This document shows positions 19,611 to 35,291 of a stretch of 56,385 nt of DNA, one piece after another. Under the pieces are notes generated by a model. The model made no database searches and was not told the DNA's origin. It saw nothing but the letters and a program-made list of their open reading frames with translations. Numbering within the stretch: the stretch's first letter is position 1; every line of letters starts with the position of its first letter. Made by a program: the position numbers and the translations under genes. Location: NCBI GenBank assembly GCA_009659895.1, contig PUXX01000026.1:1-56385 (forward strand), written 5' to 3'. This DNA is from Campylobacterota bacterium. Its GTDB lineage: Bacteria; Campylobacterota; Campylobacteria; Campylobacterales; Nitratiruptoraceae.

Positions 19611-19708
19611 AGCTCCCCGATCTTTTTTATCAACCACAGCCCAAACCCCAAGACAAACATACTCACTACAGCGACAACGATACTGCCGGTCTCGATATTG
19701 TATTCCAT
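19607..19708 (-). CDS. 33-residue single-pass membrane ORF at the end of the pilus operon
   Basis: Unrecognised. The ATG at 19708 overlaps the gspF stop by one base (TGATG), typical of translational coupling. The peptide has a short acidic N-terminus (MEYNIETGS), one hydrophobic segment of about 18 residues (IVVAVVSMFVLGFGLWL) and a basic end (IKKIGEL). Charge placement suggests the N-terminus outside and the C-terminus inside. It may be an accessory of the inner-membrane platform. A chance ORF is possible, but the coupling and the good membrane profile argue for a gene. Confidence 0.55.
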   Translation of the reverse strand: MEYNIETGSIVVAVVSMFVLGFGLWLIKKIGEL

Positions 19709-20946
19709 CACCCCATTACCTCTACTAGATTCCACATCGGCAAAAATATCCCCAAAGCCAGCGTCAAGACAAATCCAGCGATCGCCGCTATGAGGACCGG
19801 CTCTATGAGGACGGAGATGTTGCTGACAATATAGTCGAACCTGTCTTTGTAGATCTTGTAGATGCTCTTGAGCATCCGGCCAAGTCCACCTCCCATCTCC
19901 GCGCTCTTGATCATCTGGATCACCATCCCCTCAAACAGCCCCGTCCTCTCAAAACCCTGATAGAGGCTCTGCCCCTCCTCCACAGCCTCGGGTATTTGGG
20001 AGAGCTTGTGTTTGAGGTAGCTATTCTCCACGATCTCCAGGGCTATCCTCAAGGCGTCATTGATGGGAATACCTGCGCTAACAAGGACACGAAAGATATA
20101 GATAAAACGGCTGATCATCGCATAGTAGGTGGCCTTACCGATAATGAAGATCTTGAGCAAAAGCCGATCTAGAGCCATTTGGATCTTTGGATCGATCCTG
20201 TACATATACCCCAGTACGATAGCCACTATTACCGCTCCTATGAGGATGTAGGGGCCAAAGCTGATCACAGCGTGCTCAAGCCAGAGCAAAAATCTGGTCG
20301 GCAGAGGCAGCTCCACATTCATCTCTTTGAAAAAGTCCTCAAACTGGGGAATGACCATCACGATCACCGTCACGAAAGCTATGATCATGGCGATCATGAT
20401 GAAGATAGGATATCTTGTGGCCTTTTTGAATTTTCTGCGATTGTCCAAGATCTCTTGGTAGATCTGAGCTAGATGGGCGATCTCTTCAGCTAGTGTACCG
20501 GTCTCTTCTCCTAGCCGAAACATGGACAAAGAGAGGGTGCCTAGCTGCGCTTTGTGCTTTTTGGCAGCCTCATACAAGGACCGGCCCCCTTCGATATCTT
20601 CATAAATCTCTTTGAAAATCGCACGAAGCTGGGGATCCTTTTCGTTGGCGATCACCTCACCCAGAGCATAATCTAGGGGCAGTCCAGCTTCTAGCATCAC
20701 AGAAAGGGACTCCAACAAGGCTATATAGCGCTCAAGATCGATAGAGCGCCTCTTGAAAGCCTCCACGATTCTAGCAAAAAATCGTTTGAGCTTGAGGGAA
20801 AAGGGCTCTGGTACCTCTTGGATCTGGAGCAACAGACCGATCTTTTTATCCAGGAATTTTTTGGCAGCCTCCGCTCTGCTCTTGGCCTGAATGAGGGTAT
20901 GCTCCTTTTTGTTGTGACGCTTGTAGGTGATACGAAAATAGCTCAT
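19708..20946 (-). CDS. gspF: type II secretion/type IV pilus inner-membrane platform protein (GspF/PilC)
   Basis: Polytopic platform protein on which the assembly ATPase acts. It is 412 residues, with two copies of the GspF domain: first about 75-200 (LLESLSVMLEAGLPLDYALG, LFRLGEETGTLAE-like), second about 275-400 (FRVLVSAGIPINDALRIALE, MIKSAEMGGGLGRML). Membrane segments lie near 178-200, 220-245 and the C-terminus. The ATG overlaps the gspE stop as ATGA. It corresponds in position to C. jejuni ctsF. Confidence 0.93.
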   Translation of the reverse strand: MSYFRITYKRHNKKEHTLIQAKSRAEAAKKFLDKKIGLLLQIQEVPEPFSLKLKRFFARIVEAFKRRSIDLERYIALLESLSVMLEAGLPLDYALGEVIANEKDPQLRAIFKEIYEDIEGGRSLYEAAKKHKAQLGTLSLSMFRLGEETGTLAEEIAHLAQIYQEILDNRRKFKKATRYPIFIMIAMIIAFVTVIVMVIPQFEDFFKEMNVELPLPTRFLLWLEHAVISFGPYILIGAVIVAIVLGYMYRIDPKIQMALDRLLLKIFIIGKATYYAMISRFIYIFRVLVSAGIPINDALRIALEIVENSYLKHKLSQIPEAVEEGQSLYQGFERTGLFEGMVIQMIKSAEMGGGLGRMLKSIYKIYKDRFDYIVSNISVLIEPVLIAAIAGFVLTLALGIFLPMWNLVEVMG

Positions 20947-22601
20947 CGTTTATCCCTGGCCACCCTCAAGACCTCTTCGACAGTGGTCACACCATCCAAA
21001 GCCTTTTTGATCCCATCACTGATCATCGGCCTAAAGCCCTTGCGCTCAGTAGCGAATTTGAAAATATCAAACTTACTGGCTCCTTTGCTGATCAGATCGG
21101 CCACCTCCTCATCCACCTCCAAAACCTCCGATATCATCGTACGGCCATAATATCCGGTAAAATCGCATTTAGGGCACCCCTTGCCAATATAAAAGCGCCC
21201 CTGGGCCGAAAGATAGGGCTCGATCTTCTTTTCTAGATCGCTTGATATTTTGTGGGGAATCTTGCAGTGAGGGCAGATCTTGCGCACGAGCCTTTGTGCG
21301 ACGATTCCTATGATGGCGTCGGCAATGAGATGAGGCTTGAGCCCCAGCTGGGCCAACCTGGTCACCGCCCCTACAGCGTCGTTGGTATGAAGGGTGGTAA
21401 AGACTAGATGGCCCGTAAGTGAAGCCCCCGAAGCTGCGTCCAGCGTCTCATAGTCTCGAATCTCTCCGATGAGCATCACATCGGGATCTTGACGCAAAAA
21501 GGCTCTAGCCGCTACGGCAAAAGTGAGCCCGGCCTTTTCGTTGACCTGCATCTGCTGTACCAAAGGGAGTCGATACTCCACCGGATCTTCGATGGTCATC
21601 ACTTTATTATGGATACTCTTGATCTCATTGAGGGCCGCATAGAGTGTGGTGGTCTTCCCGCTTCCGGTAGGACCTGTGATGAGGACAATGCCATAAGGAG
21701 ATCGGATCATCTCTTTGAATCTCTCAAGGTTTTCTTGCTCAAATCCCAGCTCCTCAAGGCGCATGAGTGCTTTTTCTCTGTCAAGCACCCTCATAGCCAA
21801 GGACTCACCATAGATCGTAGGCATGGTCGAGAGGCGAAAATCGTAGAGCTTTTCGTCGATCTTTTGGGAAAACCGTCCATCTTGAGGCTTACGCTTTTCG
21901 CTGATATCCAAGCCACCCATGAGCTTGATGCGGCTGCTTAGGAGATTGTAGACATCCTTGTCGAACATAAAAGTCTCATAAAGGACCCCATCGATCCTCA
22001 CTCTAACCATCGCCTTGTGCTCATCGGGCTCTAGATGAATATCGGTGGCACGACGATGAATCGAGTCTTTGAGCACCAAGTCGATGAGTTTTGCTACCGC
22101 GCTTTGGCCCTCTGGCTTTTGCACTGCCCCCTCAAGCTCTTGCTTGACCTCCTCCACGATCGCTTTGGAGTCCTCTAGCACACTGAGTCTATGGAAAAGG
22201 GCCTCTACATCATCCTCCAAAGTCAGATAGATCTTCAAAGGCTTTGAGGCGATACGCTCCATCACCTCCAAAGCCTCATAATTGAAAGGATCAGCGGTAG
22301 CTACGTGCAGATACTCTCCATCTTCCTTAAAAGGAATCGCCTTGGCCTTGCGCAGCAGCTGCAAGGGAAACTTGAGTACCGTATGATGATCCAAGGCGAT
22401 ACCGCCTAGATCGATGGTCTCATAGCCATAGAGAGCTCCAAGCAGCCTCAAAAGATCCTTTTGGTTGATAAATCCCTCATCCACCAGGATCTGTTCCAAG
22501 CTCTTGTGGCTATTTTGCTGCATCTGCCGGGCTTTTTGCAGCTCCTCCTGGCTTATGAGCCCCTCTTGTACCAGGGCCTGCCCCAAATCCTTTCCTCTCA
22601 T
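20943..22601 (-). CDS. gspE: GspE/PilB/PulE-type assembly ATPase
   Basis: Hexameric cytoplasmic ATPase that powers pilin or pseudopilin assembly. N-terminal MshEN/GspE-N-type domains (about 1-140) begin GKDLGQALVQEGLI. Walker A is ITGPTGSGKTTT (about 305), Walker B is DPDVMLIGEIRD (about 370), the Asp and His boxes are present, and a C-terminal zinc site has two CxxC pairs (CPHC ... CPKC). I start at ATG 22601 with GGAG upstream (552 residues); a GTG at 22613 is an alternative. It is in the ctsE position of C. jejuni. Confidence 0.93.
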   Translation of the reverse strand: MRGKDLGQALVQEGLISQEELQKARQMQQNSHKSLEQILVDEGFINQKDLLRLLGALYGYETIDLGGIALDHHTVLKFPLQLLRKAKAIPFKEDGEYLHVATADPFNYEALEVMERIASKPLKIYLTLEDDVEALFHRLSVLEDSKAIVEEVKQELEGAVQKPEGQSAVAKLIDLVLKDSIHRRATDIHLEPDEHKAMVRVRIDGVLYETFMFDKDVYNLLSSRIKLMGGLDISEKRKPQDGRFSQKIDEKLYDFRLSTMPTIYGESLAMRVLDREKALMRLEELGFEQENLERFKEMIRSPYGIVLITGPTGSGKTTTLYAALNEIKSIHNKVMTIEDPVEYRLPLVQQMQVNEKAGLTFAVAARAFLRQDPDVMLIGEIRDYETLDAASGASLTGHLVFTTLHTNDAVGAVTRLAQLGLKPHLIADAIIGIVAQRLVRKICPHCKIPHKISSDLEKKIEPYLSAQGRFYIGKGCPKCDFTGYYGRTMISEVLEVDEEVADLISKGASKFDIFKFATERKGFRPMISDGIKKALDGVTTVEEVLRVARDKR

Positions 22602-22603
22602 AG

Positions 22604-23476
22604 CTAGCTCCACTCTTGTAGTAGCCTCTTGGCTTGGACTGAGTCCCTAAACTCCAAAAAGATTCTCAAAATCTTCTTGGCCTTCTCCTTCTTGCCCAAT
22701 TTGTACAGCGACTGAGCGTACAAGATCCACGCCTCCTCCTTGTCCCTTTGAAGCTTGTTGGCGATCTTGGCCCACTCCAGAGCCTTGTCATAGACCCCTT
22801 TTTGATAGTAGATCTTTGCGATACGTATCGCTAGAGGGTAGCTTTTTCGTTTGGCAAAAAGCTCCTGAAGCCTCTTTACATCCGTGACGCTTTGTGCTTG
22901 TATTATATCTTTTTTGACCTGCTTTTTCGCCTTTGTGGAGGCTTTTGGCCTAGCGACGCTCTTTTTTTTGGCCACACAGGGGTGACGTATCACCTCAAAA
23001 TCCAGCCCATGCCTCTTGGCAAGGGCTATAGATGGAGCCAAAGCCTTTTTGCTAGATCTTGGATCACAGACCAAAAAGAGCTGTCGATCCCCAGAAGAGA
23101 GGAGTCTGCCCCGCTCTATACTACACTCAAAACCAAGCTTTTGGACCTTTTGCCTGTAGGCTATGATCTTATCCCAAAATTTGTCATAGACATACAAAAG
23201 CCGAAGGGCGTAGCAGCCCTTTTGAGATCTCTTGGCCACCTTTTTGCGCTTTGGCAAAGAGCTGGAGCTGGAGCTAGATTGGATACTGACATGCCTAGAA
23301 GAACTCGCACTCTTGATGGAGCTAGAATGGGCCGATGAGATCGCAGAGGTCGGCATTATCCACTCATATGCGTACCAACCCCCCATCCCCATCGCCACGA
23401 TGGCTATGAGCCATGGGATCTTTCTTTTGAGCCGATAGCGCCTGCAACGTCTTTTGAGCTCCTCAAAACTACTCAA
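22604..23476 (-). CDS. membrane-anchored TPR protein of the pilus/transformation cluster
   Basis: It is 290 residues. A basic N-terminus, one membrane segment (about 21-38), a serine-rich linker (about 44-74), a SPOR-like periplasmic region (about 85-165) with two cysteines, then tetratricopeptide-type helices (about 205-288) with YYQKGVYDKALEWAKIANKL and ILYAQSLYKLGKKEKAKKIL. Its place between the ATPase and gspE matches ctsX of C. jejuni (from memory), an envelope protein needed for DNA uptake. The TTG start has GGAGG ahead and lies inside the preceding gene. Confidence 0.75.
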   Translation of the reverse strand: MSSFEELKRRCRRYRLKRKIPWLIAIVAMGMGGWYAYEWIMPTSAISSAHSSSIKSASSSRHVSIQSSSSSSSLPKRKKVAKRSQKGCYALRLLYVYDKFWDKIIAYRQKVQKLGFECSIERGRLLSSGDRQLFLVCDPRSSKKALAPSIALAKRHGLDFEVIRHPCVAKKKSVARPKASTKAKKQVKKDIIQAQSVTDVKRLQELFAKRKSYPLAIRIAKIYYQKGVYDKALEWAKIANKLQRDKEEAWILYAQSLYKLGKKEKAKKILRIFLEFRDSVQAKRLLQEWS

Positions 23477-24260
23477 TCAACCCTCCATCGATAGCGGCCA
23501 TGGTCACCAGACAGCGATTTGGCCTGGTATAGCTCTTTTTGCCCAATCTCATAGCCTCATCCATGAGCAAAAAGAGCCTGTGCAAGATCTTCTTCGTATC
23601 ACGAAAATTTCCCTTTGCCAAGCCACAGATCTCTTTGATCAATGAGTTGGAAAACTCCTTCTCAAGCCCAAAAGCCCCCGCCTTTATCAGCTCCTTGGCT
23701 ATAAACTCCCTGATCTCCTCACACTCTAGCGATCCTAGCTCCAAGACCCGATGGGGTCTGGATCGAAACTGGGGCTTTTGGAGTACTTGACTGGCTTCAT
23801 GTTTATGCATAGCCAGCAAAAACCAAAAAGCCTTGCTATCGGCTAGGATACGCAATAGCTCGAGCATCTCCTCACTGAGCAGCTGAGCCTCGTCGATAGT
23901 GACTATCACATCTTTGTCTTGATAGAGCTCCACCGCCTCTTGAAGAAGTCTCTCTAGAGCGTAGCTGCCAGGCTCCCTGCCCACACGCTGGATCAGTGTC
24001 TTGATAAAATCCACAGGCTCAAAAAAGGGGGTGCGAAAACTCACCACCTCAAATCGATCTTCCAAAAGATTTGGCAGCTGCTGCAAAAAGACCGACTTGC
24101 CACTTCCTGGAGTCCCCAACAAAAAGAGCAGCTGCTTGCTCTCGCTCTCCAAGACACTGCGCAGTTCGCTACCAAGCTTCATGGAGGCTCTTGTAGGATA
24201 GTAGGTAATCCCCTCTACCCTCTCCTCAAAGACCTTCGCCAAATCCTTGTACCCAACCAT
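23469..24260 (-). CDS. AAA ATPase of the ExeA/GspA type in the pilus operon
   Basis: It is 263 residues. Walker A is LGTPGSGKS (about 47-55), Walker B is VIVTIDEAQ with DE (about 119-127), and a C-terminal helical lid is seen (KGNFRDTKKILHRLF). ExeA-type ATPases help secretins assemble across the cell wall; C. jejuni CtsP, in the same gene position, is needed for transformation. I start at ATG 24260 behind AGGAGTGAG, one base after the secretin gene; a longer frame to 24389 would overlap that gene and has an unconserved tail. It lacks an obvious membrane segment or peptidoglycan-binding domain. Confidence 0.85.
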   Translation of the reverse strand: MVGYKDLAKVFEERVEGITYYPTRASMKLGSELRSVLESESKQLLFLLGTPGSGKSVFLQQLPNLLEDRFEVVSFRTPFFEPVDFIKTLIQRVGREPGSYALERLLQEAVELYQDKDVIVTIDEAQLLSEEMLELLRILADSKAFWFLLAMHKHEASQVLQKPQFRSRPHRVLELGSLECEEIREFIAKELIKAGAFGLEKEFSNSLIKEICGLAKGNFRDTKKILHRLFLLMDEAMRLGKKSYTRPNRCLVTMAAIDGGLIE

Positions 24261-24261
24261 C

Positions 24262-25743
24262 TCACTCCTCAAATTCTGGGAGTTGGTCGATAGTGGGGAT
24301 ATTGTGCTCTTTGATGATCTTGGGTGATATGAGTATAAAGAGCTCGCTTTTTTTGATATCTTTTTTGGTATTGTGAAAGAGTCTGCCAATCACAGGAAGA
24401 TCCCCTACAATAGGTACTTTCTTCTCTTCGTTTTTGATTTTTTTGCTAATGAGCCCACCTATGAGAATCTTTTGACCATCTTTGACCTTGACGATGGACG
24501 TGAGCTGCTTGATCTTGAGATCTGGAGGGAGGGTACGCATGTAGCTAAGGTTTTGCTCCTCGTTCAAGAGCTCACTGGTGACTGGATTGATCTTCATGAT
24601 GATCTGACCATCTTCGGTGATCTCAGGAATGACATAGAGCGTAATTCCCACAAAGGACTGACCTATGGCATAGGTGGCGCTTTGGACCGGCACCCCAGAG
24701 GTGGTAGCGGTAGTATATCCACTTGTCTCATAGCGGTAGTTGATCTGATCACCTACGTTGATGATTGCTGGCTGGTTATTGAGCGTGAGGATCTTGGGAT
24801 TTGAGAGGACTTTGACATCACCGTAGCGCTTGAGAAAGTCAAAAAGTCCATCCATAGAGAAGTGGTATCCTATAAAATAGTTGGGCAGAGCGAAATTGCT
24901 CATCTCCACTCCATCTTGGCGAAGGGAGTGGGCCTCTCTGCTCCCTGTGATAGAGAGATTGAACTGGCTCCAGTCCACACCGATGTTTTGCGAGTCGTTA
25001 TAGACCAGTTCGATAAGCTTGGCTTCGATGAGGACCTGCTTGTGGATGCGATCCAAGAGCCGATCCAAAAATCGCTTCACTGCCTCTAGCTCCCTCTTGG
25101 TCCCTCTTACCGTCACCAAAGAGGCGTCCTTGTTGATAAAGATCTCATAGTCTTTCTTGCCGCTGACTCCTCCCAAAAGAGCCTCTAGCTGCTTTTGGAG
25201 ATTGTTCCAGAAGGTAAACTCACTCTTTGTGGTGATGGTGGTATAGTCGTTGGAGCGTCCATTGGAGGTGTAGGTGCCACCAGTGGTACCTGTGGTAGAG
25301 CCTCGCATACCATAGGCTCCCGTGGTGGTATCGGAGCTAGTTCCAAGGACGACCGATTTTTTGCTTTCGCTGACCATAAACGAGAGATTGATGTAGTCTA
25401 GATTGAAGCTTTGGGTACGGTACTTGGCCACATGGAGGATCTTTCTTCTATCGTCGTATCGATAAAAAAGGTCATTCTCTCCCAAAATAAAATCCAAAAG
25501 CTCTTCGAAGGTGTAGTTTTTGATATTGACAAAATCCAAAGGCTTGTTGATAGCAGCTCTAGCACTCCTGTCATCAAAGACCACAGAGACCTCGCAGCTG
25601 TGGGTGAGATCCTTTAGGATATCCTTGATGGTGATCCCCCCGCCATCGTACCCCATCGCTTTGAGATTGAAGAGTTTGTGGGAGCACTCCTGCGCCCAAA
25701 GGATCGAACCGACCACAAAGAGGATCAAAATGGCTCTTTTCAT
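24262..25743 (-). CDS. mshL: secretin (MshL/GspD/PilQ family), outer-membrane pore
   Basis: It is 493 residues with a signal peptide (about 1-16). A STN-like N-domain (about 30-105) includes VVFDDRSARAAI. A Gly/Thr/Ser-rich segment (about 130-165) precedes an N1-type domain (about 190-240) with VTVRGTKRELEAVKRFLDRL. The secretin beta-barrel domain (about 250-480) contains LIEAKLIELVYNDSQNIGVDW, VLSNPKILTLNNQPAIINVGD and the conserved LIGGLI near 440. It is most like the MSHA secretin MshL by layout; the ctsD position in C. jejuni is the same. Confidence 0.9.
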   Translation of the reverse strand: MKRAILILFVVGSILWAQECSHKLFNLKAMGYDGGGITIKDILKDLTHSCEVSVVFDDRSARAAINKPLDFVNIKNYTFEELLDFILGENDLFYRYDDRRKILHVAKYRTQSFNLDYINLSFMVSESKKSVVLGTSSDTTTGAYGMRGSTTGTTGGTYTSNGRSNDYTTITTKSEFTFWNNLQKQLEALLGGVSGKKDYEIFINKDASLVTVRGTKRELEAVKRFLDRLLDRIHKQVLIEAKLIELVYNDSQNIGVDWSQFNLSITGSREAHSLRQDGVEMSNFALPNYFIGYHFSMDGLFDFLKRYGDVKVLSNPKILTLNNQPAIINVGDQINYRYETSGYTTATTSGVPVQSATYAIGQSFVGITLYVIPEITEDGQIIMKINPVTSELLNEEQNLSYMRTLPPDLKIKQLTSIVKVKDGQKILIGGLISKKIKNEEKKVPIVGDLPVIGRLFHNTKKDIKKSELFILISPKIIKEHNIPTIDQLPEFEE

Positions 25744-26063
25744 CGTACACTTCCTATTTGTAAAATTGTCTCTTTTCTTAGAGGCAATACGATCTTTTTC
25801 CTACCCCGCACAAGTATCACACAGCACTCCTTGATCTGGACGATTTTGGCTCCCGCTACCCTCTGACCCACACGATAAAACTTTCCATTGATAAAGGCCT
25901 TGCCATCAAAGATCCCATACAGACGCAAAGGCTTGGAGCCAGGGAGAGTCGGCTTTGGCCTGGGAGTATGAGAGGGCTTGGGGATGACAAAAGGATCATA
26001 CGCTACAGGCAGATCTGAGGCCATAAGCCCCACACTCACCAACACAACCACCGCAATCTTCAT
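25740..26063 (-). CDS. small periplasmic pilus assembly protein (MshK/PilP/GspC-like)
   Basis: It is 107 residues: a signal peptide (MKIAVVVLVSVGLMASDL), a proline-rich linker (about 28-43, PKPSHTPRPKPTLPG) and a compact beta domain (about 46-105), LRLYGIFDGKAFINGKFYRVGQRV. The domain has the GspC/PilP homology-region pattern of a protein that docks on the secretin. It overlaps both neighbours by four bases (ATGA). C. jejuni ctsR lies at this place. Family assignment is by layout and context. Confidence 0.7.
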   Translation of the reverse strand: MKIAVVVLVSVGLMASDLPVAYDPFVIPKPSHTPRPKPTLPGSKPLRLYGIFDGKAFINGKFYRVGQRVAGAKIVQIKECCVILVRGRKKIVLPLRKETILQIGSVR

Positions 26064-26680
26064 AGTTTCGCTCCATAAAAGCTGATCACGAAAGAGAATT
26101 GAGGCACACTCCCATTGGTCTCGATCGAAAGCTGGGTGGTCCGAGACAAGATCTTGCGCTCCTCGATTCCTCGCAAAAACCGTACGATATTCAAAAACGC
26201 CCCCTCACCATGGACACTGATCCTCTTTTTCTCATAGAGTCTTCCCAAAAAGGGATCGTTACGATCTTCGATCTCGATCTGGCGCAGATAGATCTTCTTG
26301 CTCTTTGAGTCGCTCAAGATTTTATCCAAGATCTTGGCGAAATTCTCCTGGGAATAGAGCTGATAGCTTTGAGCCTCGATCTGCTTGGCCAACTCCTGCT
26401 GCTCTGTTTTGGTACGCTCGATCTCCTTTTGGACAGAGGCGATCTTGCGCTCTATCGAATCAATTTGGCTAGCGATCTTTTGGACCTTCTCTTTGGCTCT
26501 GTTCTCATCCAAAAGAGCCAGCTGGGCCTTTTTGGCCTCGAACTCTCCTAGCATCGGCTCAAAAAGAAAGAGATAGCCCAAAACCCCCACAAGCATTACC
26601 ACACCCAAAAGCGCCATCCATCTTTTTGTGCCGCTTTGGGCGCCAAAATAGGCCTCTAGACGCTCTATCCACGCTCTCAT
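26060..26680 (-). CDS. PilO/MshJ-like inner-membrane protein
   Basis: It is 206 residues: a cytoplasmic start, one membrane segment (about 21-40), a long coiled coil (about 45-110, rich in Glu, Lys, Ala and Gln) and a ferredoxin-like periplasmic domain (about 115-205) ending in FSFVISFYGAKL. This is the PilO/GspM arrangement that pairs with PilN to align the ATPase with the periplasmic parts. ATGA overlaps occur at both ends. Confidence 0.78.
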   Translation of the reverse strand: MRAWIERLEAYFGAQSGTKRWMALLGVVMLVGVLGYLFLFEPMLGEFEAKKAQLALLDENRAKEKVQKIASQIDSIERKIASVQKEIERTKTEQQELAKQIEAQSYQLYSQENFAKILDKILSDSKSKKIYLRQIEIEDRNDPFLGRLYEKKRISVHGEGAFLNIVRFLRGIEERKILSRTTQLSIETNGSVPQFSFVISFYGAKL

Positions 26681-28107
26681 CGCCTCACCCTCACTTCACT
26701 CTGGTAGAGCCCCTCTCGCTCTTCGATTTTGGAGGTGTGCACATCCTTGTAACCCTTTTGGATCAGATCTTCCATAAATTTGGCGATGGCCTCTTTTTGC
26801 CTATCCTTTGAAAGAAGTCTCACAACAACCTCTTTTGAGCCGTTTTGATCGATGGAGCTGGTCTTGAGGCGATGCCTAGAAAGAGCCTCCACCACATCGT
26901 TCATCATCTTTTGGCGCACCTCCTTGGCATGCTCGATAAGAGGCACCGCATCGATCGTATCCTCCAAAGCTACCTTGCTCTCATAGAGCAGACGCAATTG
27001 CTCCTGGAGCTGCTTGTGACGCTCCTGGAGCTTCTTGAGCTCTTTGAGTTTGGCTCTGCTTTGTTGATCGATTTTGGCTATGAGGGCTCTTTTGTATGCT
27101 ATTTGCTCTTGCATCCTCTCTAACTTGCCCACTAGATACCAGTAGCCAGCCCCCATAGCGGCCAAAGCGATAGCTGCCACCATCGCAAGCCTGGTAACAA
27201 AGTAGCCTCCAAGGGGCTTTGGACGTGGGAAAATGGAGAAATTAAGCGGCTCACACCTTTGGATATATCTGGCCTCCACAGCCAAAGAGCTCTCCTTTGG
27301 CCCAAAACCACAGCAGCTAAACGGGACCTCCTTGAGCTCTCCTTGGATCCCAAACTCCTTGAAGACCTCCCCTAAGCCCGGAATATTTTGCCCTTCAAAA
27401 TCGATGACGATCCTATCGATACGCTCCAAAGGGAAGAAGTTGGCTTTGTAGTTGATGGCTTGGACTATCTTTTGGACATTTTCCAAAAAGATCTCTCGTA
27501 TAGAGCCGATGCGATCCTCATCTCCATCTAGCACCAACCCTTTGGAGATGAGCAAACTTTTTAGTCTCAGGAGCTCCATACCCAGCTTCTTGGAGATCTC
27601 TTTTAATGAGTCCAAAGCCCTATGACCGATATAGTGGCCATTTTGATAGATCGCCCCAAAACTCTCTTCTTCGCCCAAATAGAAGATCACGTCGGTAGAG
27701 GCATGGTGCTCGTCGTAGGCAGCCGTGTAGGTGATGAACTTGGGATAGAGACAGTCGATAAATCCTATCTTTTGTACCGTTTCATTGAAACGCTCCTGCA
27801 AGAGCTTCTGGGGGATTGCAAAAGCCTCCACGACCCACTCATCCTTGAACTGATGGGGATATTTGATATAGTGGATCTCATAGGCTTGCGCTAGATCGAG
27901 CCCACCTTCATTGTACATCCTCAGCTCCACTTCTAGCCCCAAGCGCTCCTCATCCAAAGATTTTGGAAAAACGAAGGTCAAGGCAATGAGATCCTTAATA
28001 GGCACCCTGGCCCCCAGAGGATACTTTCGTACCTGATCGGCCTGGATGGTGGTGATCTTCTCATCGATAAGATAGAGTTTTTCTTTATAGATTACGACCG
28101 CTGCCAT
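26677..28107 (-). CDS. PilM-PilN fusion (GspL/MshI-like) inner-membrane protein
   Basis: It is 476 residues. The first about 300 form a PilM-like actin-fold cytoplasmic domain, with GEEESFGAIYQNGHYIG and KEISKKLGMELLRLK, lacking an obvious complete ATP-binding signature. A membrane segment at about 308-330 is followed by a coiled coil (about 332-400) and a PilN-type periplasmic domain (about 405-476) with IEHAKEVRQKMMNDVVEALSRH. PilM and PilN are separate in most type IV pili; fusion is the GspL style. It starts 13 bases after the preceding prepilin gene. Confidence 0.8.
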   Translation of the reverse strand: MAAVVIYKEKLYLIDEKITTIQADQVRKYPLGARVPIKDLIALTFVFPKSLDEERLGLEVELRMYNEGGLDLAQAYEIHYIKYPHQFKDEWVVEAFAIPQKLLQERFNETVQKIGFIDCLYPKFITYTAAYDEHHASTDVIFYLGEEESFGAIYQNGHYIGHRALDSLKEISKKLGMELLRLKSLLISKGLVLDGDEDRIGSIREIFLENVQKIVQAINYKANFFPLERIDRIVIDFEGQNIPGLGEVFKEFGIQGELKEVPFSCCGFGPKESSLAVEARYIQRCEPLNFSIFPRPKPLGGYFVTRLAMVAAIALAAMGAGYWYLVGKLERMQEQIAYKRALIAKIDQQSRAKLKELKKLQERHKQLQEQLRLLYESKVALEDTIDAVPLIEHAKEVRQKMMNDVVEALSRHRLKTSSIDQNGSKEVVVRLLSKDRQKEAIAKFMEDLIQKGYKDVHTSKIEEREGLYQSEVRVRR

Positions 28108-28120
28108 ACACCCCTCAGTT

Positions 28121-28555
28121 TTATTGATAGCTGATTATAACATACCCACTTTTAGGATAGAGCCAGATAGAGGCCTTTTTGCTCCCTTTTTGAAGCTCTA
28201 TGAGCTCTTTTTTCTCCACTATTTTCATCATGCTGCCCCCTCTTTTTTGGTAGGGCTGACCAAAAGCGTCAAAACAGAGCGTATCAAAATCCTTCGTGAT
28301 CTTACTTTTTAGTCTGTATCCCTCCTGGGTGGCAAGATCCTCTATGCCTTGAGCGTCAAGATCGATACATATCATCTCAGCACCTCTAGGATCGTAGGCC
28401 AGCCCTTCGTACCTGGTCCTATCGATATGCAAGAGCAAAAAATTGGCATCATTTTGGAGGGTACGGGGCTTGAAGCCATAGAGCATGGCGCTGGCCAGGA
28501 TGGCCAAAATTGCCAATACTACGATAAGTTCGACGATACTCAATCCTCTTTTCAT
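28121..28555 (-). CDS. minor prepilin, GspH-like
   Basis: It is 144 residues. Leader MKRG before LSIVELIVVLAILAILASAML, with Glu5 present and Leu rather than Phe at +1. The C-terminal part is beta-rich with KKASIWLYPKSGYVIIS, as in GspH/FimT pseudopilins. The ATG at 28555 overlaps the previous stop as ATGA; a longer frame upstream would put 45 charged residues before the leader and is rejected. It is fourth of four minor prepilins after the adhesin gene. Confidence 0.85.
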   Translation of the reverse strand: MKRGLSIVELIVVLAILAILASAMLYGFKPRTLQNDANFLLLHIDRTRYEGLAYDPRGAEMICIDLDAQGIEDLATQEGYRLKSKITKDFDTLCFDAFGQPYQKRGGSMMKIVEKKELIELQKGSKKASIWLYPKSGYVIISYQ

Positions 28556-29013
28556 GGTCTTTGGAGTGTCCTTCGCACTATTCGAATGGGTCTGCCAATC
28601 TTTGCATGGTCGGTGGAGCTTACCACCACATCCATCAGCACATAGCCGTGGCTTTGGGGTGTGAGAATCGACTCCACCACATCGGGACACAGCGCTTTGA
28701 GATCCGTGCTTTGGTCGTTGTCGAGCCCTTTGTAGAGATAGTATTTTCGTATGGTCACATTGGCCTCAAAGCGTCCATCCTCAGATTCGATCCTGAGCGA
28801 GCGCAGACACGATCCCCCACTCCTGTCAAATCCTTGGATCTGCATGATCACCCCTTCGATCACACTATCCATAAACAAAAGAGCCTGCTCCTTGTTGTAG
28901 CTATCGCTAAAGTGGCGGGCCTTGATCTTTACAAATCGCATCCCAAGGACCACCAAAAAGCTTAACAGTAACAAAATAAAAAGGGCAAAGAGCATATTGA
29001 ATCCTCGTCTCAA
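28552..29013 (-). CDS. PilX/GspK-like minor prepilin lacking Glu5
   Basis: It is 153 residues. Leader MRRG is followed by FNMLFALFILLLLSFLVVLG; mature residue 5 is Phe instead of Glu. PilX and GspK tip subunits also lack Glu5, so this is expected for the tip position rather than a defect. It has two cysteines (GGSCLRS and LKALCPD). It is much shorter than GspK, closer to PilX. The TTG start overlaps the preceding stop as TTGA. Confidence 0.75.
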   Translation of the reverse strand: MRRGFNMLFALFILLLLSFLVVLGMRFVKIKARHFSDSYNKEQALLFMDSVIEGVIMQIQGFDRSGGSCLRSLRIESEDGRFEANVTIRKYYLYKGLDNDQSTDLKALCPDVVESILTPQSHGYVLMDVVVSSTDHAKIGRPIRIVRRTLQRP

Positions 29014-29888
29014 AACACCACCTTCATCTTGCTAAAATGGACAGCCACGGAGTCCTTGATCTGCTTGTGAATATCAAAAATGATCCGGATAGTATAATCT
29101 TGCTCAAAGATATGGATCCCCGCCACGTTCCTTAGGAGCACCGTCACCTTCCCCGCACCATTTTGGGCGTTGGGATCGGCGCAAAAGCTCTCCCCTTTCC
29201 AAGGTCTATAGTCATAAAAGAGCAAGAGCGTATCATCATCTATATCCTCTCCTTGCAGACACGTAGCCTCCTTTTGGACCTGGGCTCCTCTAGCAAGAGC
29301 ATAGGCACCTTGGAGCAGATAGTATTTTTCATAGATCCATTTTGGCTTATTGGTACCTACGATGAGCAGATCATCTCCGCTCCTTTGCACCTCAAAGACC
29401 TCCAGACTCCGACCACCATGCCATCCAAAGGCGTCCGTATAGTCTTGGGTATTGACATAGGCTCTATCGAAGCTTCCAGCAAAAATGAGAGCCTGCGCGT
29501 CTCTTTGGACCTGGGTGCGAAGAAGTCCACTGGATTTGTCGCTGGCTAGCATATCGACAAATCCACTATAATTGCCTTCATCGCTCCACAAAGGCTCATA
29601 CCCGATCCACTCCAAGACAGGGTACTCTTCATCAAGCTCATACAAAGGCTTGTATTGCTGAGTCGATCTGGCCGGATCGTAGCCAATAACCGTGGCCGGG
29701 ACTCTATAACGCAGCCAGGCGCTTAGCTGATCGATGGCGATCTGGGATTCCAAAGAGAGACGGGTGATCTCTTTGGATTTGTAGCTTTTGACCACCAGCA
29801 AAGAGACCGCCTTGAAAGCGGCTACTGATAAAAATGCGACGATCACCACCACGATCACCAGCTCGATTAGGGTAAATCCTCTTCTCAT
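29010..29888 (-). CDS. minor prepilin, GspJ/PilW-like
   Basis: It is 292 residues, the largest minor prepilin here. Leader MRRG, then FTLIELVIVVVIVAFLSVAAF with Glu5. The long globular domain has AIDQLSAWLRYRVPATVIGYD (in part), WHGGRSLEVFEV and a cysteine pair (ATCLQGED, SFCADPN). I choose the ATG at 29888, which overlaps the previous stop as TGATG and gives a standard leader; an ATG at 29900 adds four residues. Large GspJ/PilW subunits sit below the pilus tip. Confidence 0.82.
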   Translation of the reverse strand: MRRGFTLIELVIVVVIVAFLSVAAFKAVSLLVVKSYKSKEITRLSLESQIAIDQLSAWLRYRVPATVIGYDPARSTQQYKPLYELDEEYPVLEWIGYEPLWSDEGNYSGFVDMLASDKSSGLLRTQVQRDAQALIFAGSFDRAYVNTQDYTDAFGWHGGRSLEVFEVQRSGDDLLIVGTNKPKWIYEKYYLLQGAYALARGAQVQKEATCLQGEDIDDDTLLLFYDYRPWKGESFCADPNAQNGAGKVTVLLRNVAGIHIFEQDYTIRIIFDIHKQIKDSVAVHFSKMKVVF

Positions 29889-30526
29889 CACTGGTCCCAT
29901 GGTATTTTATTCACAAGGATCTGGCCAATATTGTGGGCATGGTAGCGTACCTTGCCAAAGTATTGGCCAAGCTCTTCTTGGTGACGGAGCGCATGGACCT
30001 GGATCGTGATATATTTGGTATTGGTCGTATCGCTGCTGGAGATCTCAAGCAGCCTCACAGGACCAGGATAGGGCTCCATATCCTCTACATAGCTCACATC
30101 GACTTCTAGCTCATATTGGCGCTTGAGATTTTTCCCCTCAGCCCTCACACTATAGTCGGTAAAATCGTCTATATCGTCCATAGCTCCCCCCTCCATGCCC
30201 AAAGGAGAAGCCTGGAGGCGGTTGATGCAGTTGCGTGATCCCACGAATCCGCCCCTGCGGTAGTATCCATCCCATCGCCTATCGCAGCGATAGGCGCTCT
30301 TGCCACCTTGAGTGAGCAAGATATCATCATAGTAGTTGTTTTGCTCATCCCAAGGAAGATTTTTGATCAGCCCCATAAGAGCGAAGGCGTTGTAGAGGGC
30401 TTCTTCTTTGAGAGCCATCTTGGAGGTCTTAGAGCTGATCTGAAGTACCTTTGGAATGACACTAAAGGCCAAAGCTATGATGATCATGGAAAAGATGAGC
30501 TCTATAAGCGTAAATGAGCGTCTCAT
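29888..30526 (-). CDS. minor prepilin, GspI/PilV/MshD-like
   Basis: It is 212 residues. Leader MRRS then FTLIELIFSMIIIALAFSVIP with Glu5 kept and Ser before the cleavage point. The globular part includes a Cys pair (YRCDRRWDGYYRRGGF, GSRNCINRL). It directly follows the adhesin gene (ATGA overlap), the place where MSHA clusters keep minor pilins beside mshQ. Exact homology to MshD or GspI is not resolved. Confidence 0.82.
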   Translation of the reverse strand: MRRSFTLIELIFSMIIIALAFSVIPKVLQISSKTSKMALKEEALYNAFALMGLIKNLPWDEQNNYYDDILLTQGGKSAYRCDRRWDGYYRRGGFVGSRNCINRLQASPLGMEGGAMDDIDDFTDYSVRAEGKNLKRQYELEVDVSYVEDMEPYPGPVRLLEISSSDTTNTKYITIQVHALRHQEELGQYFGKVRYHAHNIGQILVNKIPWDQ

Positions 30527-33500
30527 CGAAAAACCTTCACGCCACGTCGCCCTCTGGTGACGTTTTGATCAAATCCTACCCCCTCTACTTCACCGCTTTT
30601 GACACCGCTGCTTTGCCCAAGTTCATGATAGAAGTAGCGAATACAGGGATGATGAGAACAGGTGCTGCCAGGGGTATAACGATATTGGTCCTCATCGTGG
30701 TAACTATACCATAGCCATGGAGATATATCCAGATGGATAAAGGCATCCTCGATCTTGTCATCATTTTGGACAGTGATGGCGTAGATTCCCTCCTTGAGAG
30801 TTTTCATCAGCCCAAGTGTCACCGGATCTTGGGCTAGGTAGATATCTAGTGTGGCGTTGAGATCCTTGATCTGTCCATAGATCTGGGATGTGTGCCAGCT
30901 ATTGATGTACCAGCCGATGATACTTTGATTGAACTCCTTGGTATAGTCGCTCCCATAGCCGTCATAGACCAAGATCGTGGCCGTGGTGTTGTCCTCTGTC
31001 ATGGAGGTGACTAGATCTTTTGGTCTTATTCTTCCATAGTAAAACGTAGCATTCATATCGGCCCTCACCACTCCGCTCATCGTAGCTGAGTGGAGATACT
31101 TGGCTATGCCAGGAGTCGTGATGTTGACCTCCTTTAGCTGGACAAAAACGGGACTGACGGCTCTAGTGAAGTTTCGATCGATCCCAAAAGCGTAGCTTCC
31201 CATACCCATACCACCTCCAAAGTGCTCTTTTGGGACGGTGAGAGTCTGATTGATCTCTTGGATAGTGCCATCTGCTATGGTAGAAGTGATATTGACCTCC
31301 TCACGATAGTCGGTATCGTACATAAAGCGCAGATCCAGATCCTTGCCATAACAGCTGGCGTTGAAATCCTCCATCAGCTCTCCTGTGCGACTAAAGACGG
31401 AGAGGGTGGCCTTGAGCGTGACGTTCATATCCTCAAGATCTTGGGCCATATAGAGCCAGAAGGTCGCAGTAGAGGGAATAAACTCCAGCTTCGTGATATT
31501 GATCTCATAGGGGAGCACATGCAAGATCTGGCTTGCTCCTTGGATATAGCGCTGAGGATCTGGGGTATCATCCCTATCTACGCTAGCAAATTCAGATCCT
31601 TCGATCTCTTTGAGTGTGAGGTTGAGATCTCCGATCTCTGGATATTGAGCCTCTACATCCTTCGCCTCTCCATCCCTAAAAGCAAAAGCCTCCATATCAA
31701 TGGCCTCTTCCACACATCCTAGCTTCGTCTCGTTGATCTCCACCACAAAAGAGCTGCCATAACTTTCATTGTAGTCCTTGCTTGGCTCTTGTGCCTCATC
31801 TTTGGCCACGAAATCGATCTCAAAAGGATCGGCCGCATAGACCAAAGAGGGCAGAATAAATCCAAACTCCTTGGGACGTAGAGCGAAATTATCTGTGGCA
31901 TTTGACTCAAACTCTTCAGATCCGACCATACCTTTGATAGAGACTCTTATACATTTTGCAGCGCTTTCTAGCTTGATATTTTCTAGTTTGGCACATCCAT
32001 CTGCTCCTATGGCAGGACATCCATTTCCTAGACACAGATCGATCCTCTTTCGGCTAGTACCGCTACAGCTGCTGGTATCTCCAAGATCATAGTAATATAG
32101 ACTTACCTGAGTGATATTGGCCTCTATGGAGGTATTGGTCTCCTTGTCCTTGGCCAAAAGATAGAGGCTAAAGGGCCTTTTGACGATCTGGGTCGTAAGG
32201 TTGTTCTCCCAATCGCTTGCTCCCTCGCATACACCATCGTCCCCAGGGGAACTTACGGCATTGAAGACTCCTTCTAGGAGAGTCTCTCGAAGTGAGAAAG
32301 GATCACTAAAGACAAAAATCCCTCCCTCTTCCGCCACATGGGCACGCTCACGATCATGTGCCCTATCTTCATCTACCAAGAAGCCTACTTTTGTCGTATC
32401 CAGCGCACACCGCCTAAACCATCCTCCATCGGTACCATAGCGGCTCATCTTCCAGCCGGCGATCAGCGGGGTAGTATCGTAACTCTGAGCCAAAGAGACA
32501 CTCTTGCATCCATTGTCCCATCCTACAAAATAGGGATCGGTAGCGATGGTCTCATAATCGATGGTTCGATTGAAATCATCGATAAAACTATCCTGGATAT
32601 TGGCAGGTCCTATCATATATCCGATGGTCTCGGAAGTGCTAAAGACCCCCTGGCTCGTCTCACTCATATCCAAAGCCAGGTAGATATTATTGCCATTCGT
32701 ACGCAAAGCGGCCGTGGCCCAGGGAATGAGAGGATCTCTTGGGGGATTGGAGGAGAGGTTGTTGAGAGTCTGGATATTGGCTACGACGGCTCTATTGCAG
32801 ATCTTGAGCTTTGGTTCTACCTCTTCCCATCCGATCTCATTGCCAGCAGGAGCGTATCTGCCCTGGACCTTCTTGGTCTCTATGGTCCCTACTTCAATAA
32901 GGTGATCTCCTAGTTTGTGGACACCTTTGTTGATGGCGAAGTAGCTTAGGGTCTGATCTAAGTGGGGCCCATCTTCTCCCTGAGGCTCCACCAGTGTCGC
33001 CTCAAAACCTGTGGTAGTAATGTTTCTAATCCTCACAGAGGCAGGATGGCTCCCACGGCTATCGATCACCATAAAGACCACCGGCACGGAACTAAACGGG
33101 GCCTGGAAAGGGATATAGGTCCATGTAGGATCGGCGTAGGTGTTTTTGAGCTCCACATGACCACCTTCAAATTCCAAAGGTACAATTGGCCCGCTATACT
33201 CCTCTTCACAACAATTACAGATCCGCTCCTCTTCTACAGCATCATATCCAGCCAGCTCTTTTTGGTAGATCTCTTGGATCTGGCTTTGATCCAGTGCCTC
33301 CCCAAAGATCTTCACCTCATCCATATATCCATCAAAGGCCTGATAGGCCTGATAGTCCCCTAGAAGTTTGTCCTGATCTTGGGCTAGGACCACCCCTTTG
33401 ACATTAAGGGCTAGATCATTGGTATAGTAGCGACACTCCTGCAACACAGCATCCACATACAAACACCCCTTCTTCCCCTCTCTAGTCCATACCACGTGGT

Positions 33501-34632
33501 GCCATCGATCATCATTGATGGGAGCCAGGAGAGAGTAGCTACGATAGCTTCCTTTGATATAGTTGCGAAAGGTGGTGCTATTGAGTGAGTAGAACCAAGC
33601 CTCGTTGTATTGGGTATCGTTGGCAGCGGAGAGGATGGTAAACTTCTCTTTTGTGGTCTTGATCCACGTAGCGATGGTGAAATCTTGTAATCCATCCATC
33701 GTCTGAGGGGGAAGCTGGACCAGATCATCATCACTATCGTCGGTATTGTCCGAAGATATATAGGTAAAATCTCCTCCTCGACAGATCACCGACACTAAGG
33801 AGGTCTTGGCTATCTGTGCCGTTGCGTCAAAGCCATTTGGGCTAGAGTCCTTGACCGCACCGACTCCATCCCAAGAGCATTCATCCATGCGATATTCGGC
33901 TCTAAGAGGACAGATGCGCTGGATACCGGTATAGTCTTTGCCACTTTTTTCGTTGTTGTAGAGCTCTTGGATCTCTTGATCACTCAGGGCATGGGTGTAG
34001 ATCTTGATCTCATCCATACCTCCTTCAAACTTCGCCCTATCGCTAAGCAGATAGTTCGAGCCAATAGCCAGTGTCTTGGGATCGGCGATGTCGGCTATGG
34101 TGACCGACTCTGTATCTTTGAGCTCTCCATCGACATAGAGTCTCAAAGAACCATAGCGGTAGGTCATAGCAACCATATGCCACCTATCATCCATATAGGA
34201 GGTAAAACGATAGCTTACCTCCGTGCTCCTGTGTCCATCACCATAGATCCATCCTCTTAGGCTCCTTCCACGTGAGTCGAAAGCCAAAGCGGAACCATAT
34301 TCATAATCACCGCTCTCATCACTCATTTCCAGAAGCCTGGCCGATGCATCTTGACGTTTGGCGATCCGTACCCACAAGGTCACTGTGAGCTCTTGATCGA
34401 AGCGCTCTTGCCACTCCCCCCTCACTCTTGTTTGATCCTCGTCAAAAAGGCCACCACGACACAAAATGCCCTGTGTGGAGGTGAGATTTTCCTCGGTGAG
34501 ATCTCTGTTTGATACACTATCACGAAGTATGCCTCCATAGACATACTCATCAAAGCGATACTCACTCACCAAAGCGGCATGCAAGGACAACGAAGCCAAT
34601 ATCACCAATACCGCTTTTAGTAAGAATCTCAT
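30523..34632 (-). CDS. MshQ-like giant adhesin with two LamG-type domains and an H-type lectin-like domain
   Basis: It is 1369 residues, exported (signal about 1-19). In order: LamG/jelly-roll domain 1 (about 20-215, DRWHMVAMTYRYGSLRLYVDG), LamG domain 2 (about 243-465, DDRWHHVVWTREGKKGCLYVD), a CNCCEEE linker, a domain resembling H-type lectins (about 485-590, WTYIPFQAPFSSVPVVFMV), repeated beta-rich modules, and a C-terminal region of DUF6701/MshQ type (about 880-1369). MshQ is linked to the MSHA pilus but its exact role is unsettled. It starts inside the last codons of rsmE (ATGA overlap). A tip-adhesin role is inference. Confidence 0.82.
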   Translation of the reverse strand: MRFLLKAVLVILASLSLHAALVSEYRFDEYVYGGILRDSVSNRDLTEENLTSTQGILCRGGLFDEDQTRVRGEWQERFDQELTVTLWVRIAKRQDASARLLEMSDESGDYEYGSALAFDSRGRSLRGWIYGDGHRSTEVSYRFTSYMDDRWHMVAMTYRYGSLRLYVDGELKDTESVTIADIADPKTLAIGSNYLLSDRAKFEGGMDEIKIYTHALSDQEIQELYNNEKSGKDYTGIQRICPLRAEYRMDECSWDGVGAVKDSSPNGFDATAQIAKTSLVSVICRGGDFTYISSDNTDDSDDDLVQLPPQTMDGLQDFTIATWIKTTKEKFTILSAANDTQYNEAWFYSLNSTTFRNYIKGSYRSYSLLAPINDDRWHHVVWTREGKKGCLYVDAVLQECRYYTNDLALNVKGVVLAQDQDKLLGDYQAYQAFDGYMDEVKIFGEALDQSQIQEIYQKELAGYDAVEEERICNCCEEEYSGPIVPLEFEGGHVELKNTYADPTWTYIPFQAPFSSVPVVFMVIDSRGSHPASVRIRNITTTGFEATLVEPQGEDGPHLDQTLSYFAINKGVHKLGDHLIEVGTIETKKVQGRYAPAGNEIGWEEVEPKLKICNRAVVANIQTLNNLSSNPPRDPLIPWATAALRTNGNNIYLALDMSETSQGVFSTSETIGYMIGPANIQDSFIDDFNRTIDYETIATDPYFVGWDNGCKSVSLAQSYDTTPLIAGWKMSRYGTDGGWFRRCALDTTKVGFLVDEDRAHDRERAHVAEEGGIFVFSDPFSLRETLLEGVFNAVSSPGDDGVCEGASDWENNLTTQIVKRPFSLYLLAKDKETNTSIEANITQVSLYYYDLGDTSSCSGTSRKRIDLCLGNGCPAIGADGCAKLENIKLESAAKCIRVSIKGMVGSEEFESNATDNFALRPKEFGFILPSLVYAADPFEIDFVAKDEAQEPSKDYNESYGSSFVVEINETKLGCVEEAIDMEAFAFRDGEAKDVEAQYPEIGDLNLTLKEIEGSEFASVDRDDTPDPQRYIQGASQILHVLPYEINITKLEFIPSTATFWLYMAQDLEDMNVTLKATLSVFSRTGELMEDFNASCYGKDLDLRFMYDTDYREEVNITSTIADGTIQEINQTLTVPKEHFGGGMGMGSYAFGIDRNFTRAVSPVFVQLKEVNITTPGIAKYLHSATMSGVVRADMNATFYYGRIRPKDLVTSMTEDNTTATILVYDGYGSDYTKEFNQSIIGWYINSWHTSQIYGQIKDLNATLDIYLAQDPVTLGLMKTLKEGIYAITVQNDDKIEDAFIHLDISPWLWYSYHDEDQYRYTPGSTCSHHPCIRYFYHELGQSSGVKSGEVEGVGFDQNVTRGRRGVKVFR

Positions 34633-35291
34633 ACCAATACCTTCGCGCTTATAGCTATAGCAGCACTCTCACTTCGCAAGATCATAGGAGTATCCAGCCC
34701 AGTGACACGATCAAAAAGAGCCCGCTCCTCATCGCTAAAGCCCCCTTCTGGGCCTATACAGACTCTTTGTATATTATAGAACGTTTTTTCCGTTTTGTCA
34801 CTAAAGTCCAAAAATAGTATATCGTTATATTCCTCCATCGCTTCGGCAATGTTTTTAATCGTCTCCAGCTCCATTAAATCGCTCCTGCCACACTGCTGGC
34901 AAGAGTTGATCAAGATCTTTTTGAGTTTATCGAAACGGAGCTTGAAATTTTTCTGGCTCCTATCGCAATAGACGAAACTGATCTTGGCTACTCCTAGCTC
35001 ATTGAGAGTCGGCAGCGCCTTTTCGATCGCTTTTGGATCGATCAGGCACCAGATGAGATGGAGATATCGTGGAGGCTTGACCTCTTTGTGCTCTTTGTGA
35101 ACGAGTGTTAATATGGCCTCCCTTCGGCTCACCTCGTCGATACGATAGAAATAGAGATATCCATCTTGCATATTGCGAAAGGGAACGATCTCTCCTCTTT
35201 TGTGACGCCGGACCTTCAAGAGGTAGTTGTAGATCTCTCCATCGACCCTCAGACTCCTCTTGCCGCTTGCGGGATGATAGACAAACTGCAT
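34629..35291 (-). CDS. rsmE: 16S rRNA (uracil-1498-N3)-methyltransferase
   Basis: SPOUT methyltransferase that methylates U1498 in 16S rRNA. A PUA-like N-terminal part (about 1-65, HPASGKRSLRVDGEIYNYL, VRRHKRGE) precedes the knotted catalytic domain. It shows GVAKISFVYCDRSQKNF, the SAM-site segment IGPEGGFSDEE (about 173-183) and the ending ILRSESAAIAISAKVLV (about 204-220). It is 220 residues. It overlaps the membrane protein stop upstream by one base (TGATG) and the adhesin start downstream by four, so a housekeeping enzyme is embedded in the pilus transcript. Confidence 0.94.
   Translation of the reverse strand: MQFVYHPASGKRSLRVDGEIYNYLLKVRRHKRGEIVPFRNMQDGYLYFYRIDEVSRREAILTLVHKEHKEVKPPRYLHLIWCLIDPKAIEKALPTLNELGVAKISFVYCDRSQKNFKLRFDKLKKILINSCQQCGRSDLMELETIKNIAEAMEEYNDILFLDFSDKTEKTFYNIQRVCIGPEGGFSDEERALFDRVTGLDTPMILRSESAAIAISAKVLV

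Follow-up and report, generated by a model that had tools for sequence, protein, structure and literature searches.

What is the function of a giant protein with several carbohydrate-binding-like modules that is encoded at a type IV pilus locus? This question was raised by a 1,369-residue open reading frame (ORF) in a stretch of 56,385 nucleotides from a Campylobacterota bacterium of the family Nitratiruptoraceae (assembly GCA_009659895.1, contig PUXX01000026.1, positions 1 to 56,385 of the forward strand; hereafter, the window). Our analyses indicated that this ORF is probably the MshQ protein of the mannose-sensitive hemagglutinin (MSHA) type IVa pilus in the Nitratiruptor group of Campylobacterota, probably a tip adhesin with a lectin head that would bind glycans. 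MSHA pili, which owe their name to a sugar-sensitive activity, act in first attachment in Vibrio. Within the literature searched, which leaves most subscription papers and all preprints outside and in which each cited source was used in its accessible part, no subunit was named as responsible for the glycan binding of MSHA, and MshQ is placed among the MSHA components of unknown function (PMC9815625).

Identity of the ORF and its pilus linkage

The ORF extends from position 30523 to position 34632 of the minus strand, starts with ATG, and is free of internal stops; all features described below lie on that strand unless stated otherwise. A 4-nt overlap joins it to its upstream neighbor rsmE (34629 to 35291; 306.1 bits with NCBIfam NF008695 against a cut-off of 246), which precedes it in transcription order, and a second 4-nt overlap joins it to a pilin-like gene downstream. 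An intact ORF directly after rsmE, as described in an earlier sequence-only reading, was thus confirmed. The locus in the window is an MSHA type IVa pilus operon that contains mshL, mshG, pilin genes, and an mshE of the cyclic di-GMP (c-di-GMP) type, the gene company by which an mshQ is recognized, and the suggested link to a pilus was borne out by this secretin-bearing operon. The ORF and its translation, the operon context, and a C-terminus homologous to DUF6701 pointed to an MSHA pilus adhesin-like protein, MshQ.

The N-terminus MRFLLKAVLVILASLSLHA (residues 1 to 19; 34576 to 34632), read by eye and not with a predictor, is a probable Sec signal peptide. A profile scan of the protein gave no prepilin (N_methyl) match, and a Pfam scan gave no match to the PF05567 beta-propeller; membership in the type IV minor pilins of the TcpB/CofB type and in the PilC/PilY1 family was rejected on these grounds. 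The label of a TafC fimbrial protein (NF052521) was also rejected, at 70.2 bits against a curated 410 and with a best stretch (residues 64 to 232) in the LamG part.

Two LamG-type domains, as had been proposed, were recovered with the Laminin_G_3 profile of Pfam, which matched two stretches (E of 7.3e-42; 143.5 bits against a cut-off of 27.6). The first domain covers approximately residues 22 to 236 (33925 to 34569; best stretch, residues 79 to 222) and the second approximately residues 243 to 470 (33223 to 33906), with a Pentaxin match on residues 299 to 458 (E of 3.7e-15). The copies share 29.5% identity over 244 columns (E of 1.9e-18) and, by this comparison, are duplicates of each other.

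The C-terminal part

An MshQ-type C-terminus had also been claimed. A Pfam scan of MshQ alone to an E value of 10, in which most matches weaker than about 0.1 are removed by the HMMER filters, gave no direct DUF6701 match, but the claim held in profile-profile comparison: a C-terminal profile of 20 Campylobacterota sequences (our own included) matched one of 34 gammaproteobacterial sequences at 99.1% probability (E of 1.8e-18, 356 columns), the profile having been iterated within a small locus set of our own choosing, in which drift is possible. The close relatives G005, G053, G010, and G012 exceed the DUF6701 cut-off. By sequence comparison, residues 808 to 1369 (30526 to 32211) are hence of the DUF6701 type. 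The predicted structure of this part (predicted local distance difference test [pLDDT], 74.2; predicted template modeling score [pTM], 0.66) consists mainly of strands, and its best Foldseek matches include strings of immunoglobulin (Ig)-type and complement-type domains, with low TM-scores; because of these two features, it is likely to form a stalk. The protein ends in GVKVFR (residues 1364 to 1369; 30526 to 30543). The pattern G-[VI]-[KR]-x-x-R was present in 20/20 C-termini of a chosen MSHA-type set, from which paralogue-type loci (L002, L022, L024 to L031, and others) had been excluded beforehand; the C-terminus of the paralogue-type locus L002 lacks it. In the isolated C-terminus model, the GVKVFR tail is of low confidence.

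The C-terminus and tail are the part common to MshQ proteins, and this would suit a protein that acts chiefly in assembly or priming of the MSHA pilus and whose N-terminal sandwiches are spacers or protein-protein modules and not lectins. Deletion of mshQ in Vibrio cholerae lowers surface MSHA, retraction continues, and MshQ is termed a putative adhesin (PMC7096442). Since loss of the gene reduces piliation, the main role of MshQ could lie in assembly, and the observation counts against an adhesin. We regard this explanation as unlikely in view of the conservation and exchange of the head described below, and the tip adhesin remained our preferred reading.

Three tandem H-type-lectin-like repeats

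A third, lectin-like domain had been placed at residues 485 to 590. Its H-type-lectin-like fold and its H_lectin match stood, but its extent proved to be threefold longer, with three tandem units predicted over residues 485 to 785: repeat 1 (residues 485 to 576; 32905 to 33180), repeat 2 (residues 577 to 687; 32572 to 32904), and repeat 3 (residues 688 to 785; 32278 to 32571). A single lectin unit at residues 485 to 590 was rejected on the basis of the strands in the model and of repeat-to-repeat profile matches. The Pfam H_lectin family, which had been put forward for a profile check, matched residues 505 to 548 with 22.7 bits in the whole protein and with 27.1 bits when the module was scanned alone (cut-off, 24). 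This family recognizes repeat 1 only, and an H_lectin match of some kind was obtained at an E value of ≤10 in 9/9 members of the module alignment A2.

The AlphaFold2 model of the triplet, built from a 67-row alignment, had a pLDDT of 96.5 and a pTM of 0.93, and in our reading of its DSSP list a run of six strands occurs three times. Profile comparisons of the three pairs of repeats gave scores of 57.7, 31.2, and 34.1, with probabilities of 97.0, 79.5, and 86.1%, respectively; the maximum score in column shuffles (30 per pair) was 15.6. Repeat 2 matched repeat 1 with an E value of 1e-10, and the repeat 3 profile matched repeats 1 and 2 with E values of 1.5e-5 and 5e-6. In a forced global alignment, repeats 1 and 3 reached a probability of only 44.5%.

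In a Foldseek search with the module, Helix agglutinins, SLL-2, and phage gp53 stood out with probabilities of 0.99 to 1.00. Helix aspersa agglutinin (HAA) superposed on repeat 1 of the predicted model over 82 residues (2.2 Å, Z of 4.5), so that a lectin-type sandwich was indeed found within residues 485 to 590, and heads of pyocin and phage fibers superposed on repeat 3 (Z of 4.2 to 4.5). In the predicted structure, the six-stranded sandwich of the H-type lectins is therefore present, at Z scores under 5. Superpositions of the whole module included the C-terminal domain of PCSK9 (Z of 2.0 to 3.5) and engineered single-chain trimers of C1q, adiponectin, and APRIL-BAFF heads (Z of 2.7 to 3.5; root mean square deviation of 4.1 to 5.8). 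The weak matches to single-chain trimers suggest that the triplet may be a covalent pseudo-trimer. Several results weigh against this interpretation. No Foldseek match reached an E value of ≤0.001, and several unrelated chains ranked higher by E value; viral dUTPases also superposed on the whole module (Z of 3.2 to 3.6); and no superposition had a Z score of ≥5, whereas scores below that value are also obtained with common arrangements. Since no Z score reaches 5, the threefold arrangement is a reading and not a measurement. When the repeat 1 profile was compared with PDB, the Helix pomatia agglutinin (HPA) and HAA ranked first with an E value of 0.03, not significant alone. The module profile A2 gave only three chance-like matches among solved structures, all to bone marrow stromal antigen 2 (E of 0.2 to 0.3), and a search of viral contigs gave no match.

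The minor pilin CofB superposed on repeat 3 over 93 residues (3.7 Å, Z of 2.2). TcpB and CofB are type IVb minor pilins that are placed at the pilus tip, form trimers, have an H-type-lectin-like domain 3, and hold the secreted proteins TcpF and CofJ (PMC9565799). That such a fold can bind a protein partner is in keeping with the assembly role considered above, and it also raises the alternative that the triplet acts as an adaptor, on which a protein secreted separately would dock in the manner of CofB and TcpB. The Z score of the CofB alignment is low, however, and the four ORFs between mshQ and mshI resemble pilins or a pilus gene, no systematic search for a partner having been made; we consider the adaptor quite unlikely and continued to favor a head that would itself bind the target.

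A candidate site in repeats 2 and 3

The 67 rows of the conservation alignment were derived from 57 named loci and the window. Seven residues, Q621, G736, G737, W738, E755, H765, and E768, were present in 67/67 rows; D756 was present in 66, E668 in 64, C709, C742, R731, and R740 in 63 each, D760 in 62, and R763 in 60. The conservation of G736, G737, and W738 was partly built in, because one of the two patterns with which the named loci were found covers SRYG.DGGW. In a further 9 loci found by profile, at least one of which had already been counted (L127 and the V. harveyi L091 are one locus), G736, G737, W738, Q621, N625, E658, E668, E755, D756, H765, and E768 were present in 9/9 and D760 in 8/9. 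The most conserved polar cluster lies in repeat 3 (R731, W738, R740, E755, D756, D760, R763, H765, and E768), where C709 and C742 possibly form a pair, and Q621 and E668 of repeat 2 are also conserved. From these alignments, a candidate site was placed in repeats 2 and 3, outside the repeat that Pfam recognizes. The retention of the module polar residues Q621, E755, H765, and E768 in every row argues against sandwiches that serve as spacers in an assembly factor.

The site for N-acetylgalactosamine (GalNAc) in HPA includes Arg, Trp, and His. The position of repeat 1 aligned with the Arg is an R in 42/67 rows, and no like residues in repeat 1 align with the Trp-His loop. This mismatch, together with the location of the conserved cluster in repeats 2 and 3, is a point against the preferred reading, and the ligand of the MshQ head may be other than a GalNAc-type sugar or may not be a sugar at all.

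Distribution of the module and exchange of heads

A scan of named genomes yielded 59 module loci. The MshQ C-terminal profile matched in the same ORF in at least 40 of them, some ORFs ending at contig ends, and one locus (L067) fails our C-terminal profile yet passes Pfam DUF6701. An mshE or mshG gene was present within the fetched stretch in 28 of the 59, including all 8 named Alteromonas contigs; the remaining loci had neither gene in the fetched stretch, partly owing to contig ends, and three Vibrio loci (L076, L077, and L078) had no MSHA neighbor there. Among Campylobacterota, the module was detected in 6 of 298 sampled genomes, our own included (one of these, G045, lacks the C-terminal profile in the module ORF), and in 9 of 60 genomes of a further set, again with our own (L001, L003 to L009, and L018). 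In G002, a genome of the same genus as the window, mshQ equals in length and profile score that of L042, a contig named Nitratiruptor sp., and the assignment of the host to the Nitratiruptor group is based on this agreement.

Twenty-one mshQ loci linked to MSHA pilin genes were compared (the window, L040 to L042, L045, L106 to L113, and L115 to L122; in L120 and L122, the pilin genes begin about 2 kb away). The rsmE gene adjoins mshQ in 12 of these loci; another 5 are truncated on the 5′ side by a contig end, and in the remaining 4 the fetched stretch showed no rsmE. The triplet was present in 9 loci and absent from 11, of which L108, L111, and L112 were judged on 5′-cut ORFs; L117 cannot be told. 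Heads without the triplet had LamG domains (L106, L113, and L115) or a right-handed beta-helix (L116 and L118). The C-terminal profile matched in 21/21, a constancy that is partly by construction, because the loci were found by likeness to MshQ, many of them via the C-terminus, and that to this extent lessens the case for a kept C-terminus. The counts for the genus of V. harveyi, drawn independently of the C-terminus of the window MshQ, point the same way: the module was found in 32 and DUF6701 in 87 of 99 genomes. By these comparisons, the head of MshQ is exchangeable and the C-terminus is kept. Variation of the head type across operons with a related C-terminus is what would be expected for a binding specificity and argues further against a role chiefly in assembly.

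The same scans bear on the proposal that MshQ is an ordinary large adhesin subject to domain shuffling, in which the triplet lacks any function shared between hosts. Three loci (L068, L052, and L061) carry one or two module copies beside DUF11 or LTD in proteins with no DUF6701 match; the module is therefore not an MSHA-only part, which detracts from a dedicated pilus head. On the other side, in a comparison by hand, each of the 35 Vibrio module matches had a DUF6701 match downstream of it on its own contig and strand, 33 of the 35 lay in an open frame equal in length to that of at least part of the DUF6701 match, and the fixed polar cluster is kept across phyla. Shuffling without a shared function is very unlikely in our judgment.

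The view that the domain combination could not be named in a characterized protein did not survive, since the combination is that of MshQ: H_lectin and DUF6701 also share a chain in Colwellia, where H_lectin exceeds its cut-off, and in Shewanella and Alteromonas, where it falls short. Locus L091 of V. harveyi has a DUF6701 match and no Pfam H_lectin match, and the triplet there was called with our own profiles.

Some individual heads differed in other ways. Two head-to-tail copies of the triplet, i.e., six lectin-like units, were present in L046, L056, L057, L062, L064, L065, and L068, the last with DUF11 and no DUF6701 match. In one genome of the V. harveyi genus (G332), neighboring triplet-DUF6701 genes were located at C2:693922-694941 and C2:697932-698918, with a third copy on C1. 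An MshQ-like protein of Colwellia hornerae (L067, 7985 to 13012) has an Ice_binding match (32.8 bits; cut-off, 28.7) before the triplet, a possible ice-adhesion head. Module proteins were also observed in contigs assigned to other phyla, a metagenome-assembled genome (MAG) of Desulfuromonadaceae (L044) and one of Candidatus Diapherotrites (L069), through transfer or mis-binning; the modules of L044 and of the window share about 50% identity.

A model for MshQ at the pilus tip

In the model that we prefer, in which MshQ is a tip adhesin, the Sec signal would export the protein and the DUF6701-like C-terminus would dock on the minor-pilin complex encoded immediately downstream. By analogy with PilY1 and the type IVb tip proteins, MshQ would then pass the MshL secretin at the pilus tip. 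The exchangeable N-terminal head, composed of two LamG domains and the H-type-lectin-like triplet, would grip glycans of surfaces or cells, and PilT-driven retraction might follow.

Published sugar specificities of MSHA differ between species. In V. cholerae, MSHA binding is saturable with a mannose derivative (PMC4624765); V. parahaemolyticus deficient in MSHA no longer binds Lewis A/X and blood group A/B glycans, and its MSHA does not bind mannose (reviewed in PMC3887276). Differences between the MSHA heads of species could explain such differences in specificity. A more far-reaching proposal, which we offer tentatively and with less than even expectation, is that MshQ is the sugar-binding subunit of MSHA, with a covalent H-type lectin pseudo-trimer at its core and a site in repeats 2 and 3; it would be the one-chain counterpart of the TcpB/CofB tips, and exchange of heads would account for the glycan differences between species (mannose versus Lewis and blood group glycans). 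If this were true, two type IV pilus classes would carry threefold H-type-lectin-like heads, one by oligomerization and one by repeat fusion. The literature searched yielded no account of an MshQ with a triple H-type-lectin module and did not mention DUF6701 by name; MshQ and its domain families are already known, and this triplet-bearing variant is, within that literature, undescribed. A triplet of about 300 residues with fixed candidate residues, found from Campylobacterota to Vibrio, makes the issue of which subunit binds a question about a single protein.

Other genes of the MSHA operon

The gene downstream of mshQ (29888 to 30526) is minor pilin-like, with an N_methyl score of 19.0 bits (cut-off, 21.2), and is a conserved neighbor. 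It is followed by a minor pilin gene (29010 to 29900; 296 residues) with a prepilin motif above the cut-off; by a pilus gene in an MshP-like position (28552 to 29013; 153 residues), which has no NCBIfam match and a conserved order; and by another minor pilin gene (28121 to 28690), in which the prepilin motif, also above the cut-off, lies at residues 47 to 69 and the true start is probably downstream of the listed GTG. The mshI-like (26677 to 28107; no Pfam match, position and conservation), mshJ-like (26060 to 26680; a weak T2SSM match of 20.1 bits, below the cut-off of 27.8), and mshK-like (25740 to 26063; no Pfam match) genes were named by position. The mshL gene (24262 to 25743) has a Secretin match (E of 1.4e-44) and matches MshL of Alteromonas MSHA loci. 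The mshM ATPase gene (23469 to 24389; AAA_22, E of 6.2e-19) has a listed start that overlaps mshL, and the mshN-like gene (22604 to 23476) encodes a protein with TPR-type matches. The extension ATPase gene mshE (20943 to 22613) has a c-di-GMP motif and scored 47.6 bits with NF053729 (MshE-related c-di-GMP binding; cut-off, 38). The platform protein gene mshG (19708 to 20946) has GspF/PilC-type matches, all below equivalog cut-offs, and matches MshG in MSHA loci.

Two short pilin genes on the plus strand (18641 to 19126 and 19119 to 19610) converge on the end of the operon and are possible candidates for the major pilin. Elsewhere in the genome, a 1.39-Mb draft, pilT was detected (481.2 bits; cut-off, 319.1). 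A PilY1 profile search of this genome gave no match, but its controls were also silent and the draft is 86% complete, so that absence was not shown. The same genome encodes a second DUF6701-type protein of 1,580 residues (G000:C80, locus L105, 894 to 5636, minus strand) that adjoins pilin-like genes (238 to 900 and 2 to 241); its N-terminal 975 residues gave no LamG or triplet match, and a second pilus-tip cluster is possible.

Comparison with related pilus proteins and lectins

MshQ proteins of Vibrio, Shewanella, and Alteromonas (DUF6701, PF20419) likewise combine an MSHA operon, the triplet module, and a DUF6701 C-terminus. The C-terminus of the window protein differs in being too divergent for a direct DUF6701 match and in ending in GVKVFR, and mshQ is the first gene after rsmE in the window, whereas in those genera it follows mshE, mshG, and the pilin genes.

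The H-type lectins (Helix pomatia and Helix aspersa agglutinins and SLL-2) share the six-stranded sandwich with repeat 1 of the model (fits over 80 to 85 residues, 2.2 to 3.0 Å, Z of 3.8 to 4.5). These lectins are oligomers of single-domain chains, whereas MshQ has three copies per chain and leaves the Trp-His loop of HPA unmatched.

Like MshQ, PilC/PilY1 proteins combine a common C-terminal part with N-terminal modules that vary, and they are tied to a minor-pilin tip complex (PMC8179133); MshQ differs from them in having no PF05567 match and a C-terminus of the DUF6701 type. The PilC of Streptococcus sanguinis also displays a ConA-like lectin-superfamily module on a type IV pilus, but there the module is grafted on a pilin and no H-type lectin part is mentioned in the accessible part of the source (PMC8179133). 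TcpB and CofB likewise place an H-type-lectin-like domain in trimeric form on a type IV pilus (PMC9565799), and CofB aligns weakly with repeat 3. In contrast to these homotrimeric pilins, MshQ begins in the Sec manner, lacks a pilin domain, and carries its three units fused in one chain.

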